Of a stretch of 64,000 nt of DNA, positions 36,674 to 42,578 are shown piece after piece. This DNA is from Frigidibacter mobilis (GTDB taxonomy: Bacteria > Pseudomonadota > Alphaproteobacteria > Rhodobacterales > Rhodobacteraceae). A model generated the notes under the pieces. That model saw only the letters and a program-made list of their open reading frames with translations, did no database searches and had not been told where the DNA came from. How positions within the stretch are numbered: position 1 is the stretch's first letter; the number at the start of each line of letters is the position of its first letter. The stretch is taken from the NCBI RefSeq assembly GCF_001620265.1, contig NZ_CP012661.1, forward strand, positions 1,984,001 through 2,048,000, given 5' to 3'. A program made the position numbers and the translations under genes.

Positions 36674-36750
36674 TGGCGCGGTTGACGGGGCTCGAACCCG
36701 CGACCCCCGGCGTGACAGGCCGGTACTCTAACCAACTGAGCTACAACCGC
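36674..36750 (-). tRNA. tRNA-Asp (GTC), copy 1
   Basis: The 77-base gene folds as a normal tRNA with seven-pair acceptor (GCGGTTG / CAACCGC), anticodon stem CCGGC/GCCGG, loop CTGTCAC with anticodon GTC, T arm with TTCGAAC, discriminator G and an encoded CCA. It is the same, base for base, as the copy at 38770-38846. It is on the strand opposite to the LRR gene that follows. Confidence 0.96.
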
Positions 36751-36862
36751 GCAATGGGGGGCTACCTAGACGCTGAGGCTGGGGGCGTCAAGCCCGAATG
36801 CGCGGGGGATTGCGGGAGGGATGCGGGCGCGTCAGGGTGGGGCAAGTGGCGAGGAGCGGGTG

Positions 36863-38716
36863 ATGGAGGAAACGGCGGCAGAGGCGGCGTATGCGGCGGC
36901 GCTGGACGAGATCGAGCGGGTGAAGCGGGAAGGCGGACGGGAGTTGGACCTAAGTTCGGAGCCCTACCGCGCTTTGGATCGCATTCCGCCTGAGGTGGCG
37001 GGGATCGAGGGATTGCAAGAGTTCTCGCTTAGCCAAACTGAAATTTGCGACCTTGCCCCCCTCGCGGGCCTCACCGCGCTGAGAAAACTCGTTCTCAACC
37101 AGACCGCGGTTGCTGATCTCACACCGCTCGCAGAAATTGCCTCTCTGCAATGGCTTGAGCTTAGCCAGACCGCGGTTGCCGACGTTACCCCAATCGCGGG
37201 TCTTACCGGACTGCGCTGGCTCGAGTTCAACCAGACTGCGGTTGCCGATCTCGCGCCCCTCGCAAGCCACACCGCGTTGCAAGGCCTTTATTTTGCCACA
37301 ACCGCCGTTTGCGACTCAACCCCGCTTTCTGGCCTCACCGCGCTAAGGGGGCTTGGCTGCAACCAGACCAAAGTAGCAGACCTTCAACCCATTGCGAGCC
37401 TCACCGCACTGCGATGGCTCTGGCTCAGCGACACAGCGGTTGCGGACATCTCACCAATTTCCAACCTTATCGGACTGGAGGGACTCGGGCTTAGCCAAAC
37501 CTCGGTGACCGACCTTGCACCTCTCGCACGACTTACCGCGTTGCAGGTACTCTGGCTCGACAGAACCGCTATCTTCGACCTCGCCCCCCTTCGGAACCTG
37601 ACTGCGCTTGCTGATTTGACGCTAAATACCAGCAACATCTCAGACCTGCGGCCGATCAGTAAAATGGTAATGCTAGGGACAAACCGCCCTCCCGGCCTGA
37701 GCTTCGCGGACACACCGGCCACACGTCTCGACGCGGAACTGGCGCGGCTCGCGCTGGTAGAGGACGAAGAAGACCGCGCCCGCCAGACCCTCGCCTATCT
37801 CAACTCCCTGCCGCCTTGGCCGGAACCCTACACTCCCAAGGCCCGCCCCGACGGCCTGCCGCCGGAGCCGATTGGCGCTCTACCGGCACCGCCGGAGCAG
37901 GACGCCGCGCTGCCGCTGATCTGGGGCGAAAAGGGCTTTGCCTTTCTCGCCGCGCAGATCGGGGCCGATTCGGTGACCGAGGCGGTGCTGGGGGACCTGC
38001 TGCCGCTGATCGAGGACCTGCGCCGCAAGGGCAACCGGCATGACGACCTCTACCGTCTTGCGGGCGAATTGCAGGAGCGGGCGACGGGCGAGATTTCCAC
38101 GCTCAACATGGTCAAGCTGCATCTGAGCTATCAGAAGCTGCGCCGGGTCTACCTGGGGCGCGAGGGGCGGGCCGAGCGGTTCGATGACGAGACGGTCAGC
38201 GCCATCGCCGGGGTGCTGGAGATCGTGCCGGGGGTGACGCTGGCCGATGCGGGCGTGCAGGTGCTGATCGAGCGGCAGGAGCAGGAGCGGGCGCGCAAGG
38301 TCGCCCCCGAGGTGGCAGCGGCCGAGGCGCAGGTGCTGGTCTCGGTGCAGGCAGAGGACGCGCCCTTCGACCCTGCGGTGAAGGATGCGGCCCGGGTGAT
38401 CCTGCTGCCCGGGATGGATGACAGGCTGTCGGCCAGCCGGGGGATTCTCTCGCGGAATACCGTGGTCGTGGTGCTGAAGCACGTCCGTGGGGCAGTAGCA
38501 GCCGGCGCTATCGGCGGCCCCGTCGGCAACTACGTCTATGACCACGGCCCCCAGCTTCTGGCGCTTGCACAGACGATGGGCGACGACGCCTTCTTCTGGG
38601 CGCAGATGATCCTGGCGAAGTTCAAGGGCCAGTATGAGCTGGCAATGGGGATCGCGCGGGAAGTCGCACAGGCGGGCCCCGTCCGTCTGCGCCGGGACAG
38701 GCCTGACAAACCCTGA
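36863..38716 (+). CDS. Leucine-rich-repeat protein with a C-terminal domain of unknown function
   Basis: A 617-residue protein with no signal peptide. After a charged N-terminus (1-50), residues 51-270 form ten 22-residue repeats with consensus LxxLxLxQTAVADLxPLAxLTA, the internalin-like LRR type. Then comes a Pro-rich linker (about 310-350) and a helical C-terminal region to residue 617 that I do not recognise, with a hydrophobic stretch near 535-560 (TVVVVLKHVRGAVAAGAIGGPVGNYV). LRRs bind proteins, so this is likely a recognition module joined to an effector or anchor part, but function is unknown. The ATG at 36863 has GAGGAG six bases upstream. The LRR coding part has visibly lower GC than its neighbours. 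It lies alone between two identical tRNA-Asp genes, which suggests a mobile or hotspot origin. Confidence 0.85.
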   Translation: MEETAAEAAYAAALDEIERVKREGGRELDLSSEPYRALDRIPPEVAGIEGLQEFSLSQTEICDLAPLAGLTALRKLVLNQTAVADLTPLAEIASLQWLELSQTAVADVTPIAGLTGLRWLEFNQTAVADLAPLASHTALQGLYFATTAVCDSTPLSGLTALRGLGCNQTKVADLQPIASLTALRWLWLSDTAVADISPISNLIGLEGLGLSQTSVTDLAPLARLTALQVLWLDRTAIFDLAPLRNLTALADLTLNTSNISDLRPISKMVMLGTNRPPGLSFADTPATRLDAELARLALVEDEEDRARQTLAYLNSLPPWPEPYTPKARPDGLPPEPIGALPAPPEQDAALPLIWGEKGFAFLAAQIGADSVTEAVLGDLLPLIEDLRRKGNRHDDLYRLAGELQERATGEISTLNMVKLHLSYQKLRRVYLGREGRAERFDDETVSAIAGVLEIVPGVTLADAGVQVLIERQEQERARKVAPEVAAAEAQVLVSVQAEDAPFDPAVKDAARVILLPGMDDRLSASRGILSRNTVVVVLKHVRGAVAAGAIGGPVGNYVYDHGPQLLALAQTMGDDAFFWAQMILAKFKGQYELAMGIAREVAQAGPVRLRRDRPDKP

Positions 38717-38719
38717 CCC

Positions 38720-38765
38720 CCCAAAGCCAAAAGCCCCCGCTTGCGCGAGGGCTTTTGGCTTTGGG
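38720..38765. terminator. Bidirectional hairpin terminator between the LRR gene and tRNA-Asp copy 2
   Basis: A perfect 17-bp stem (CCCAAAGCCAAAAGCCC, 38720-38736, with 38749-38765) around a 12-base loop. It follows the LRR stop by 3 bases and the tRNA 3' end by 4 bases on the other strand, so it can end both transcripts. The CTTTT inside the arms replaces a separate T run. Confidence 0.8.
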
Positions 38766-38769
38766 AAGG

Positions 38770-38846
38770 TGGCGCGGTTGACGGGGCTCGAACCCGCGAC
38801 CCCCGGCGTGACAGGCCGGTACTCTAACCAACTGAGCTACAACCGC
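38770..38846 (-). tRNA. tRNA-Asp (GTC), copy 2
   Basis: The same 77 bases as copy 1 at 36674-36750, including the encoded CCA. Flanking bases on both sides differ between the copies, so the duplication is the gene itself, not a longer segment. Confidence 0.96.
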
Positions 38847-40348: not shown

Positions 40349-41638
40349 TCAGCCGCGCGCGGCGAGCACCGAGGCTTCCAGGATCTCCAGCGCCTCGTCG
40401 AATACCGCGTCGGGGATGGTTAGCGGCGCAAGGAAGCGGATCACATTGCCATAGACACCGCAGGTCAGCAGGATCAGGCCGCGCGACAGCGCCTCCTCGC
40501 GCACCCGGTTCGCAAACCCGGCATCGGGGGCGCCGGTGCCGGGCACCGCGAATTCCACCGCATTCATGAAGCCCGGGCCGCGGATATCGGCGATCTGCGG
40601 CACCGCCTCCTGCAGCCCCGCCAGCCGCTGTTTCAGCCGCTGGCCAAGGCGCATGGCGCGGTCGCAAAGCTGTTCCTCCTCGATCACGTCCAGCACCGCA
40701 TTGGCGGCGGCGATGGCCAGCGGGTTGCCGGCGTAGGTGCCGCCCAGACCGCCGGGGTTGGGGCTGTCCATGATCTCGGCCCGGCCCGTCACCGCCGAAA
40801 TCGGCAGGCCGCCGCCAAGGCCCTTGGCCATCGTGGTGATATCGGCGGCGACCCCGTGATGCTCCATCGCAAACAGCTTGCCGGTGCGGGCAAAGCCGGT
40901 CTGCACCTCATCGGCGATCAGCACGATGCCATGCGTGTCGCAAATGGCGCGCAAGCTGGCCATGAAGCCGGCCGGAACCTCGTAGAAGCCGCCCTCGCCC
41001 TGCACCGGCTCGACCAGGATCGCCGCCACACGGGTCGGCTCAAGGTCGGCCTTGAACAGGCGGTCGAGCGCCGCGAGCGAGTCCTCGGCGGTGACCCCTT
41101 GCAGCGCGACCGGGAACGGCAGGTGCCAGACATCGGCCATCATCGGGCCGAAGCCGGCCTTGTAGGGCTGCACCTTGCCGGTCAGCGCCATGCCCATGAA
41201 GGTGCGGCCGTGAAAGCCCCCCGCGAAGGCGATGACGGCGGCGCGCCCGGTGTGATGGCGGGCGATCTTCACCGCGTTCTCCACCGCCTCGGCGCCGGTG
41301 GTGGCGAAGAGGGTCTTCTTGGCAAAATCGCCCGGCACCTTGTCATTCAGCCGCTCGGCCAGGGTCACGTAATTCTCGTAGGGCACGACCTGGTGGCAGG
41401 TATGGGTGAAGCGGTCGAGCTGCGCCTTGACCGCGGCGATCACCCTGGGATGGCGGTGGCCGGTATTCACCACCGCGATGCCGGCGGCGAAGTCGATATA
41501 GCGGGTGCCGGTCTTGTCCCAGATTTCCGCATTCTCGGCCCGGTCAGCATAGACCTGCGTGGTGACGCCGACACCGCGGGCGATGGCGGCGGTGCGGCGG
41601 GCCGAAAGGGCGGCGTCGGTGATCGTGCTGTGGGTCAT
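40349..41638 (-). CDS. gabT: 4-aminobutyrate aminotransferase
   Basis: A 429-residue class III PLP aminotransferase that converts GABA and 2-oxoglutarate to succinate semialdehyde and glutamate. GabT-like features are the TTGAEAVENAVKIARHHTGR stretch, FAGGFHGRTFMGMALTGK, DEVQTGFARTGKLFAMEH and the PLP-lysine region TTMAKGLGGGLPISAV. The start MTHSTITDAALSARRTAAIARGVG at 41638 was chosen because the in-frame stretch upstream crosses the promoter. It faces away from the MerR-XRE-cupin regulator, with a dyad between them. With the polyamine transporter and aminoaldehyde dehydrogenase nearby, it fits the end of putrescine breakdown. Confidence 0.93.
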   Translation of the reverse strand: MTHSTITDAALSARRTAAIARGVGVTTQVYADRAENAEIWDKTGTRYIDFAAGIAVVNTGHRHPRVIAAVKAQLDRFTHTCHQVVPYENYVTLAERLNDKVPGDFAKKTLFATTGAEAVENAVKIARHHTGRAAVIAFAGGFHGRTFMGMALTGKVQPYKAGFGPMMADVWHLPFPVALQGVTAEDSLAALDRLFKADLEPTRVAAILVEPVQGEGGFYEVPAGFMASLRAICDTHGIVLIADEVQTGFARTGKLFAMEHHGVAADITTMAKGLGGGLPISAVTGRAEIMDSPNPGGLGGTYAGNPLAIAAANAVLDVIEEEQLCDRAMRLGQRLKQRLAGLQEAVPQIADIRGPGFMNAVEFAVPGTGAPDAGFANRVREEALSRGLILLTCGVYGNVIRFLAPLTIPDAVFDEALEILEASVLAARG

Positions 41639-41665
41639 GGCGGAATGTCCTGAAGGGGTTGCCGG

Positions 41666-41692
41666 AATCCTTGCAGTTTTCCTGCAAGAATT
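41666..41692. promoter_or_regulatory. Dyad between gabT and its divergent regulator
   Basis: CTTGCAG-ttttc-CTGCAAG (41670-41688), extending to AAT..ATT with one mismatch (41666-41692). It lies 28-54 bases upstream of gabT and 68-94 bases upstream of the regulator ATG, as expected for an operator shared by divergent promoters. Confidence 0.65.
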
Positions 41693-41759
41693 GTCGGTGA
41701 CACTATACAAAAGCCGGAACCGTGCAATATCTCTCTTGAGGCAATCGCAAGGAGAGCTG

Positions 41760-42578
41760 ATGCCCGAGGACATGACCCCAGACCCGCCGCGCTACCGCGT
41801 GGCAGAGGCGGCGCGCGCGGCCGGCGTCGCGCCCTCGACCCTGCGGCTGTGGGAGACGCAGGGGCTGATCGCGCCGGCACGCCTTGCCTCGGGCCAGCGG
41901 GTCTATTCCGAGGCGGATGTGGAACGGCTCTGCCGCATCGCCTTCCTGCGCCGCGAGGACGGGCTGAACCCCGCCGCGATCCGCGCCGCGCTGGCGGGGG
42001 AGGCCCCGGCCCCATCGCCCTCCTCATCGCCCGCCGCCGCGTCCGACCTCGGCCCGCAGCTGCGCCGGTTGCGGCAGGCGCGCGGCGAGACGCTGGAGCA
42101 GGCGGCGGCGGCGCTTGCGGTCTCGGCCTCGGCGCTGTCGACGCTGGAGCGGACCGGCGCCGGCGTGTCGTTCAAGACCCTGCACGACATCGCCCGCCAT
42201 TACGGTACCACGGTGTCGAGCCTGTCGGGCCAGGATGCCCCCGGCGGCGCGGTGGTGCGGGCGGGGGCGCGGCGACGCTGGCCGATGCCGGTGCCGGGGG
42301 TGACGGTGGAACTGCTGGCCGAGGGCCGCAACCAGATGGATTGCCACCTGTTCCGCCTCGCCTCCGGCGCGGCCAGCGAGGGCGGCTATGGCCATGAGGG
42401 CGAGGAGTTCCTGCACCTGCTGGAGGGTCGCTTCCGCATCGTGCTCGACGGCACCGAGGCGCATGACCTCGGCCCCGGGGATTCCATCTATTTCGCCAGC
42501 CGCCGGCCCCATGCCTGGATGAACCTTGGCGAGACGGACTGCGTGCTGATCTGGGTGAACACGCCGCCGAGTTTCTGA
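41760..42578 (+). CDS. MerR-type and XRE-type HTH regulator with a cupin domain
   Basis: The 272-residue regulator has three domains in order. Residues about 10-78 are a MerR-type winged helix (YRVAEAARAAGVAPSTLRLWETQGLI, QRVYSEADVERLCRIAFLRRE). Residues about 95-155 are an XRE-type HTH (LRRLRQARGETLEQAAAALAVSASALSTLERTG). Residues about 190-268 are a cupin (HEGEEFLHLLEGRFRIVLDGTEAHDLGPGDSIYF). XRE-cupin proteins such as PuuR sense small molecules in polyamine and amino acid pathways; a MerR front is less usual. It is divergent from gabT. The ATG at 41760 has AAGGAG six bases upstream. Control of gabT is inferred from the layout and the dyad. Confidence 0.87.
   Translation: MPEDMTPDPPRYRVAEAARAAGVAPSTLRLWETQGLIAPARLASGQRVYSEADVERLCRIAFLRREDGLNPAAIRAALAGEAPAPSPSSSPAAASDLGPQLRRLRQARGETLEQAAAALAVSASALSTLERTGAGVSFKTLHDIARHYGTTVSSLSGQDAPGGAVVRAGARRRWPMPVPGVTVELLAEGRNQMDCHLFRLASGAASEGGYGHEGEEFLHLLEGRFRIVLDGTEAHDLGPGDSIYFASRRPHAWMNLGETDCVLIWVNTPPSF

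Follow-up and report, generated by a model that had tools for sequence, protein, structure and literature searches.

The window, a stretch of 64,000 nucleotides from the 4.99-Mb genome of Frigidibacter mobilis (G000), carries two base-identical tRNA-Asp genes of 77 bases each that flank a single gene on the opposite strand. This gene encodes a protein with leucine-rich repeats (LRRs), and it was compared with its counterparts in two further Frigidibacter genomes, those of F. albus SP32 (G001) and of a MAG (G002). The features of the locus are as follows.

36674..36750, minus strand: tRNA-Asp(gtc), second of the pair in transcription order (ARAGORN)
36767..36791, minus strand: presumed promoter of the second tRNA, with TTGACG at -41 (TTGAC is kept across separated pairs)
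36863..38713, plus strand: gene for the 617-residue LRR protein, with an ATG start at 36863 (to 38716 with the stop codon)
36941..37753, plus strand: block of about residues 27-297 (LRR array), apparently replaced by comparison with G002, and also different in the part that G001 has (identity windows, dS)
37013..37672, plus strand: ten 22-residue leucine-rich repeats, residues 51-270 (Pfam, pattern count)
37688..37897, plus strand: conserved linker, residues 276-345, DTPAT...LPPWPEPYTPKARPDG...PIG, common to proteins with different C-termini
37898..38713, plus strand: C-terminal module of type T1, residues 346-617, predicted to be helical, the last three helices (residues 523-603) including a mildly hydrophobic Gly/Ala-rich stretch
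38720..38765, no strand assigned: strong hairpin, probably a bidirectional terminator for the LRR gene and the first tRNA (fold -39 kcal/mol, z -7.0)
38770..38846, minus strand: tRNA-Asp(gtc), first of the pair in transcription order (ARAGORN)

The open frame of the LRR gene begins at 36821 and has 631 codons, and the ATG at 36863 gives a protein of 617 residues. Gaps of just 112 bases before the gene and 53 bases after its stop codon leave no further sizeable gene between the tRNAs, and the remaining listed open reading frames there all overlap the LRR gene. The protein consists of a short N-terminal helix, the ten LRRs, the conserved linker and a C-terminus of 272 residues. A preliminary description of this arrangement is confirmed in its main points: ARAGORN and the ORF coordinates place a single opposite-strand gene between identical tRNAs; a pattern count of 10 (repeat starts at residues 51, 73, 95, 117, 139, 161, 183, 205, 227 and 249) and a Pfam LRR_4 match (E = 7.7e-20) agree with ten 22-residue repeats in 617 residues; and the LRR part does have the lower GC content when compared with the C-terminus (58.6% in residues 45-275 versus 68.5% in residues 346-617, with GC3 of 64% versus 87%). 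A 537-residue database version of the protein (P0004), on a contig of 4,350,424 bases, is identical to it up to residue 528, continues for nine residues in another frame and ends before the last helices are complete; this shortening is either a natural break or an assembly error.

Genes for an M20 peptidase and a GNAT acetyltransferase lie on one side of the locus, and genes for a pirin and a class-III aminotransferase lie on the other. A PADLOC scan of eight neighbouring ORFs left seven without a match, and the eighth, a regulator-like protein, matches generic HTH models, which gives no indication of a defence island around the locus. The regulator-like protein is encoded a few genes off (window 41559-42578), and its matches (mad1, HTH_VI and capH) probably reflect a generic helix-turn-helix. 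The insert consists of the single gene between the tRNA-Asp pair and contains no integrase gene, which sets it apart from integrase-borne tRNA islands.

Comparison across the family indicates that the split tRNA-Asp pair is a hotspot for small cargo. This tRNA is present in 378 of 394 family genomes, and in Rhodobacteraceae it usually occurs as a close tandem pair. The site is empty in another genome of the genus (G004), where a 30-base spacer separates the two tRNA-Asp genes. Because the tandem pair is ancestral across family genomes, the LRR gene sits within an old pair, and we rejected the idea that its insertion created the second tRNA-Asp. Spacers were counted by eye in 179 genomes with copies close on one contig, among the matches listed and with G000 and G009 included; six genomes with copies far apart, on separate contigs or in a single copy were left out. 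The spacer is shorter than 100 bases in 144 of these, between 101 and 544 bases in 25, and longer than 1 kb in 10. Members of the LRR family fill five of the ten long spacers (G000, G009, G226, G240 and G149). The other five hold unrelated genes, which encode a DDE transposase (G169, locus L044), an RCC1-repeat protein (G098, L043), a Hint_2 protein (G325, L047), a DUF418 protein (G204, L048) and a cyclic-nucleotide-binding (cNMP-binding) domain protein (G266, L046). The earlier proposal of a cargo gene in a tRNA hotspot is thus borne out by the neighbourhoods of relatives, in five of which other single genes, a transposase included, replace the LRR gene in the same spacer. Outside the 179 genomes, G002 also has an LRR gene at the tRNA-Asp site, and the contigs of G001 and G314 break inside or next to an LRR gene there. 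In Jannaschia donghaensis, the LRR gene is next to a close tRNA-Asp pair rather than within it. In G355 (L051), a genome in which one copy of this tRNA was found, the LRR gene adjoins that single tRNA-Asp. Tandem arrays with three to five copies of the tRNA occur in G320 (contig C42), G196 (C15), G117 (C72) and G114 (C1).

The second tRNA appears to stay expressed from a promoter that comes with the insertion. A TTGAC element is found at -38 to -41 before the second tRNA in all 14 separated pairs examined, and it is absent in G004, the one unsplit pair examined. Twelve of the 14 pairs are split by more than 1 kb (in one of these, a contig ends within the second tRNA), and the other two have spacers of 381 and 544 bases. 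A scan for consensus promoters and terminators at the cassette found neither element; the promoter is called from the conservation of its position and the terminator from its fold. A search for a tandem DNA repeat found none. If both assignments hold, then the insert would be a single-gene cassette within a split tandem tRNA-Asp pair, with the order terminator, reversed gene, promoter and tRNA-Asp.

The T1 C-terminus is rare. As a single-sequence query, residues 346-617 match 11 of 394 family genomes at E <= 1e-4, which is an undercount because a protein in G035 that aligns with the LRR protein over residues 6-586 (35%) is not among the 11. The gene is therefore not found in most Rhodobacteraceae; presence in most of them is what the preliminary description had taken as the mark of an ordinary core gene. 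Seven of the 11 matches are at tRNA-Asp (G000, G001, G009, G226, G240, G314 and G355), one is at tRNA-Val (G091), and three have no tRNA within the fetched stretch (G154, G270 and G301), as is also the case for G035. In G035, the T1-branch LRR gene (L023:2450-5249) overlaps the beginning of an ORF that by reading is thioredoxin-like (WCGPC), which hints at a possible second insertion site. In a sample of 385 genomes of the class, a C-terminal profile (A2) matches just this genome and G046. No relatives were found in viral contigs, searched with two peptide patterns, or in phage records.

In proteins from different genera, at least five unrelated C-termini follow the same LRR and linker. A linker-only search gave 26 matches, and these, taken with those of a search that used our C-terminus, include relatives that join the same LRR and linker to other C-termini. 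We clustered the C-termini of 59 of 70 proteins, those with a PPWP motif; the 11 dropped for lack of the motif all align over our C-terminus. This gave types T1 (40 proteins), T2 (8), T3 (5), T4 (3) and T5 (3), with T1 over-counted because part of the protein set was collected using our C-terminus as the query. In profile comparisons, the close T1 proteins match a divergent T1 branch with a probability of 100, versus 27.3 or less for all pairs of different types. The same tRNA-Asp site in G149 holds a T5-type protein (56% identical to P0060 over 301 positions) with a C-terminus that has no match to our T1. In every type, a 19-mer hydropathy of 1.5 or more occurs within about the last 100 residues of at least one member, and many members are without such a stretch. 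A Methylobacterium currus plasmid encodes a protein (L071:2425-5936) with a T5-like part and, by reading, no LRRs, the match being weak (27%, E = 6e-5). This protein is near DUF4433 and macro-domain genes, an arrangement known from the DarTG toxin-antitoxin.

The LRR block, on a plain reading of the alignments, appears to have been replaced between Frigidibacter genomes, while the flanks and the C-terminus diverge normally. Relative to G002, dS is 0.31 for the peptidase, 0.36 for the acetyltransferase, 0.27 for the C-terminus and 0.63 for the linker, versus 1.58 for the LRR part. Relative to G001, it is 0.20-0.29 for three flanking genes and 0.37 for the C-terminus, versus 1.67 for the LRR part, of which 120 residues are present. 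For G002 against G001, the linker and C-terminus together give 0.45 and the N-terminal piece gives 1.18. In windows running from the second tRNA as far as roughly codon 25, nucleotide identity to G002 is 0.83-1.0; it falls to 0.53-0.74 between about codons 27 and 297 and returns to 0.79-0.97 over the remainder of the gene, with steps at about residues 27 and 297 that bound the divergent block. Identity is also low (0.26-0.74) in noncoding stretches around the acetyltransferase gene. The short non-repeat N-terminus (44 codons) is divergent too, with a dS of 1.33 to G002 and 0.72 to G001; since the divergence starts upstream of the repeats, it must involve more than repeat slippage. The ten repeats have a mean of 0.60 when compared in register, versus 0.59-0.71 per row for the best pairs of any register, and the best partner is in register for only two of the ten, which indicates that the repeats are not orthologous. 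The low GC3 of the LRR part is common to the differing blocks of G001 and G002 (60-62%) and not to all other genera. By one pattern, the number of repeats ranges from 0 to 16 among the matches listed, 12 of which have 0. Positive selection on the concave LRR face finds no support, with dN/dS near 0.25 and synonymous sites near saturation (LRR dS of about 1.6); dS at the concave positions was not computable. With these values, the divergence reads as block replacement rather than as demonstrated fast amino-acid change.

AlphaFold2 models the whole LRR protein with a mean pLDDT of 91.4 (45 sequences) and the C-terminus alone with 86.3 (11 sequences). The T1 module is predicted to have a short two-strand start and to be helical thereafter, ending in the three helices of residues 523-603. 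The best 19-mer near its end has a hydropathy of 1.45, and residues 451-469 in the middle of the module reach a maximum of 1.65, which weakens the case for a strong transmembrane hairpin. Given this marginal hydrophobicity at the end and the more hydrophobic stretch upstream, action of T1 at the membrane is a tentative guess from composition. The C-terminus had previously been described as unassignable, and it stays so after profile and structure searches: there is no significant relative in Pfam, PHROG, PADLOC or the PDB, and fold searches gave no usable one. A PDB match to a Chelona toxin (E = 0.11, 15.5 bits) is at chance level. Pfam matches to the LRR protein at E up to 1 are to LRR families only, with no NACHT/STAND, Roc-COR, HEPN or RES domain. 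PADLOC-DB 2.0.0 has no match for our protein, for one member each of T2-T5, for another T1 member or for the G046 protein.

The G046 protein (487 residues) is the only class-level match outside the family. Its C-terminus aligns with the A2 profile (E = 2.1e-7 in the genome search, hhalign probability 91.7), and the probability is 91.6 with the divergent T1 branch alone and 0.3 with the close T1 proteins alone. Its N-terminus resembles HEPN_RES_NTD1 (PF18870), with a score of 25.6 bits that is below the cut-off of 27.4. In a published account (PMC3710099), HEPN/RES-NTD1 is reported to occur in fusions with HEPN and RES domains, which are toxin domains. The strongest hint at an effector role for T1 is the G046 fusion, a single protein. 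The earlier suggestion that the C-terminus may be an effector is thus supported indirectly, by its interchangeability with unrelated types and by a distant relative that follows a HEPN/RES-NTD1-like domain. The G046 gene (L064:111-2184) directly follows a 201-residue ORF that by reading resembles a LexA/UmuD-type peptidase. On a Phaeobacter plasmid, a relative of the G046 N-terminus directly follows genes for an ATP-binding protein and a type ISP restriction/modification protein, and the remainder of that relative is unmatched.

These comparisons lend good support to a modular sensor-effector architecture, and the insertion site, the replacement of the LRR block and the exchange of C-termini can be read from the genomes themselves. 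Our preferred explanation as a whole, to which we assign a probability of roughly 0.45, is that the gene product is a cytoplasmic sensor and effector in one protein. Its LRR array would serve as an exchangeable recognition surface, swapped by homologous recombination inside a conserved gene, and the conserved linker would couple it to an interchangeable helical effector at the C-terminus. For the ligand, activation, membrane action and benefit in defence, we infer the following: the LRRs may bind a foreign protein, with phages and other mobile elements as its most likely source, and binding would cause the effector to harm the cell, perhaps when its C-terminal helices insert into the inner membrane. 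The likeliest use would then be defence by self-damage against phage or mobile elements, at slightly under even odds.

A protein of the same modular architecture could instead act in self/non-self recognition or competition, with LRRs that recognize proteins of sister strains rather than of phage. The targets would be delivered effectors or components of a GTA or of conjugation, and the C-terminus would be a killing or arrest domain. The replacement-level LRR dS in each of the three genome comparisons (1.58, 1.67 and 1.18) is what changing partners would produce, and a T6SS sheath is present in four of 14 carrier genomes. However, the sheath is absent in the other ten, including G000, G001 and G002, and no partner or immunity gene lies between the tRNAs. 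We consider this use unlikely.

We give a similarly low chance to a housekeeping or stress scaffold, in which the LRRs bind host proteins, the C-terminus is an anchor, and the LRR variation comes from neutral drift and chance recombination. A dN/dS below 1 in every computable part and the low LRR GC3 common to the G001 and G002 alleles are compatible with such a scaffold. The sparse distribution (11 of 394 genomes, an undercount) at a variable site with other cargo is less so, as is the divergence of the non-repeat N-terminus, and five unrelated C-termini would not be expected of a scaffold.

It is quite improbable that the protein is an exported internalin-like or injected LRR effector that acts on eukaryotic or bacterial neighbours. 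Its LRR part does resemble class 1 internalins (InlH E = 3e-44), and some relatives are labelled internalin A in their source records, but all four NCBIfam internalin models score far under their cut-offs (InlH 151.6 versus 1050 bits, InlA 122.7 versus 1600 bits). Hydropathy gives no N-terminal export signal (the best N-terminal 19-mer is -0.13), and this genome has no T6SS sheath. No T3SS secretin exceeds the YscC cut-off in any of the 14 carriers, a test without a positive control since the control genomes fail it too; matches below the cut-off occur in all 14 (69.2 versus 238.45 bits in this genome and up to 132 in G355). The role in contact with other cells that had been raised earlier is consequently not supported in this genome. 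A selfish tRNA-linked cassette, kept because of the promoter and the copy of tRNA-Asp that it carries and of little use to the host, would account for the TTGAC element in all 14 separated pairs, but it is very improbable given an insert without integrase or transposase (there is no other sizeable ORF), and an intact reading frame and a C-terminal dN/dS of about 0.19 that place the LRR protein under purifying selection.

Returning to the cytoplasmic sensor-effector, we tentatively propose a family of ATPase-less immune receptors in which an LRR cassette is swapped between sister lineages while a constant linker joins it to several unrelated helical effectors, often in a split tRNA-Asp pair. 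This would be a bacterial counterpart, in one polypeptide, of plant R-gene diversification. If this proposal is correct, then free-living bacteria have LRR receptors that exchange both their specificity part and their effector part, often at a defined site open to scanning across many genomes, and receptor diversification could be tested in a one-gene bacterial system. At least five unannotated effector-like C-terminal families would be gained, and the tandem tRNA-Asp spacer would be a place to seek more single-gene cargo in Rhodobacteraceae.

At the level of titles and abstract openings, the literature yields no description of this LRR family, and the Caulobacter CARD-NLR-like system (PMC13236601) differs from it. 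The HEPN/RES-NTD1 proteins are linked to our protein through G046, in which a domain resembling theirs is joined to a C-terminus related to the T1 branch, whereas our protein has LRRs instead and no detected HEPN or RES domain. Class 1 internalins (Listeria InlA/InlH) share 22-residue LRRs of the same subtype, but our protein has no hydrophobic N-terminus, scores far below their cut-offs and has another C-terminus. Among LRR-Roc-COR (Roco) proteins, plasmid-borne COR proteins match the LRR stretch of a T3-type relative (P0064); our protein has neither a Roc nor a COR domain. The swapping of hsdS specificity domains, in which the recognition part is exchanged by recombination between conserved flanks, is a close parallel to the apparent LRR replacement, although the proteins are unrelated and no methylase or nuclease partner is present here. 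The NLR/STAND immune proteins (Avs, bNACHT) combine a repeat sensor with an interchangeable effector, a likeness to our protein in outline. Ours differs in that it has no detected NACHT/STAND ATPase and places its sensor at the N-terminus and its effector at the C-terminus. It is not a member of the NLR family, and on our reading it works like an NLR minus the ATPase.
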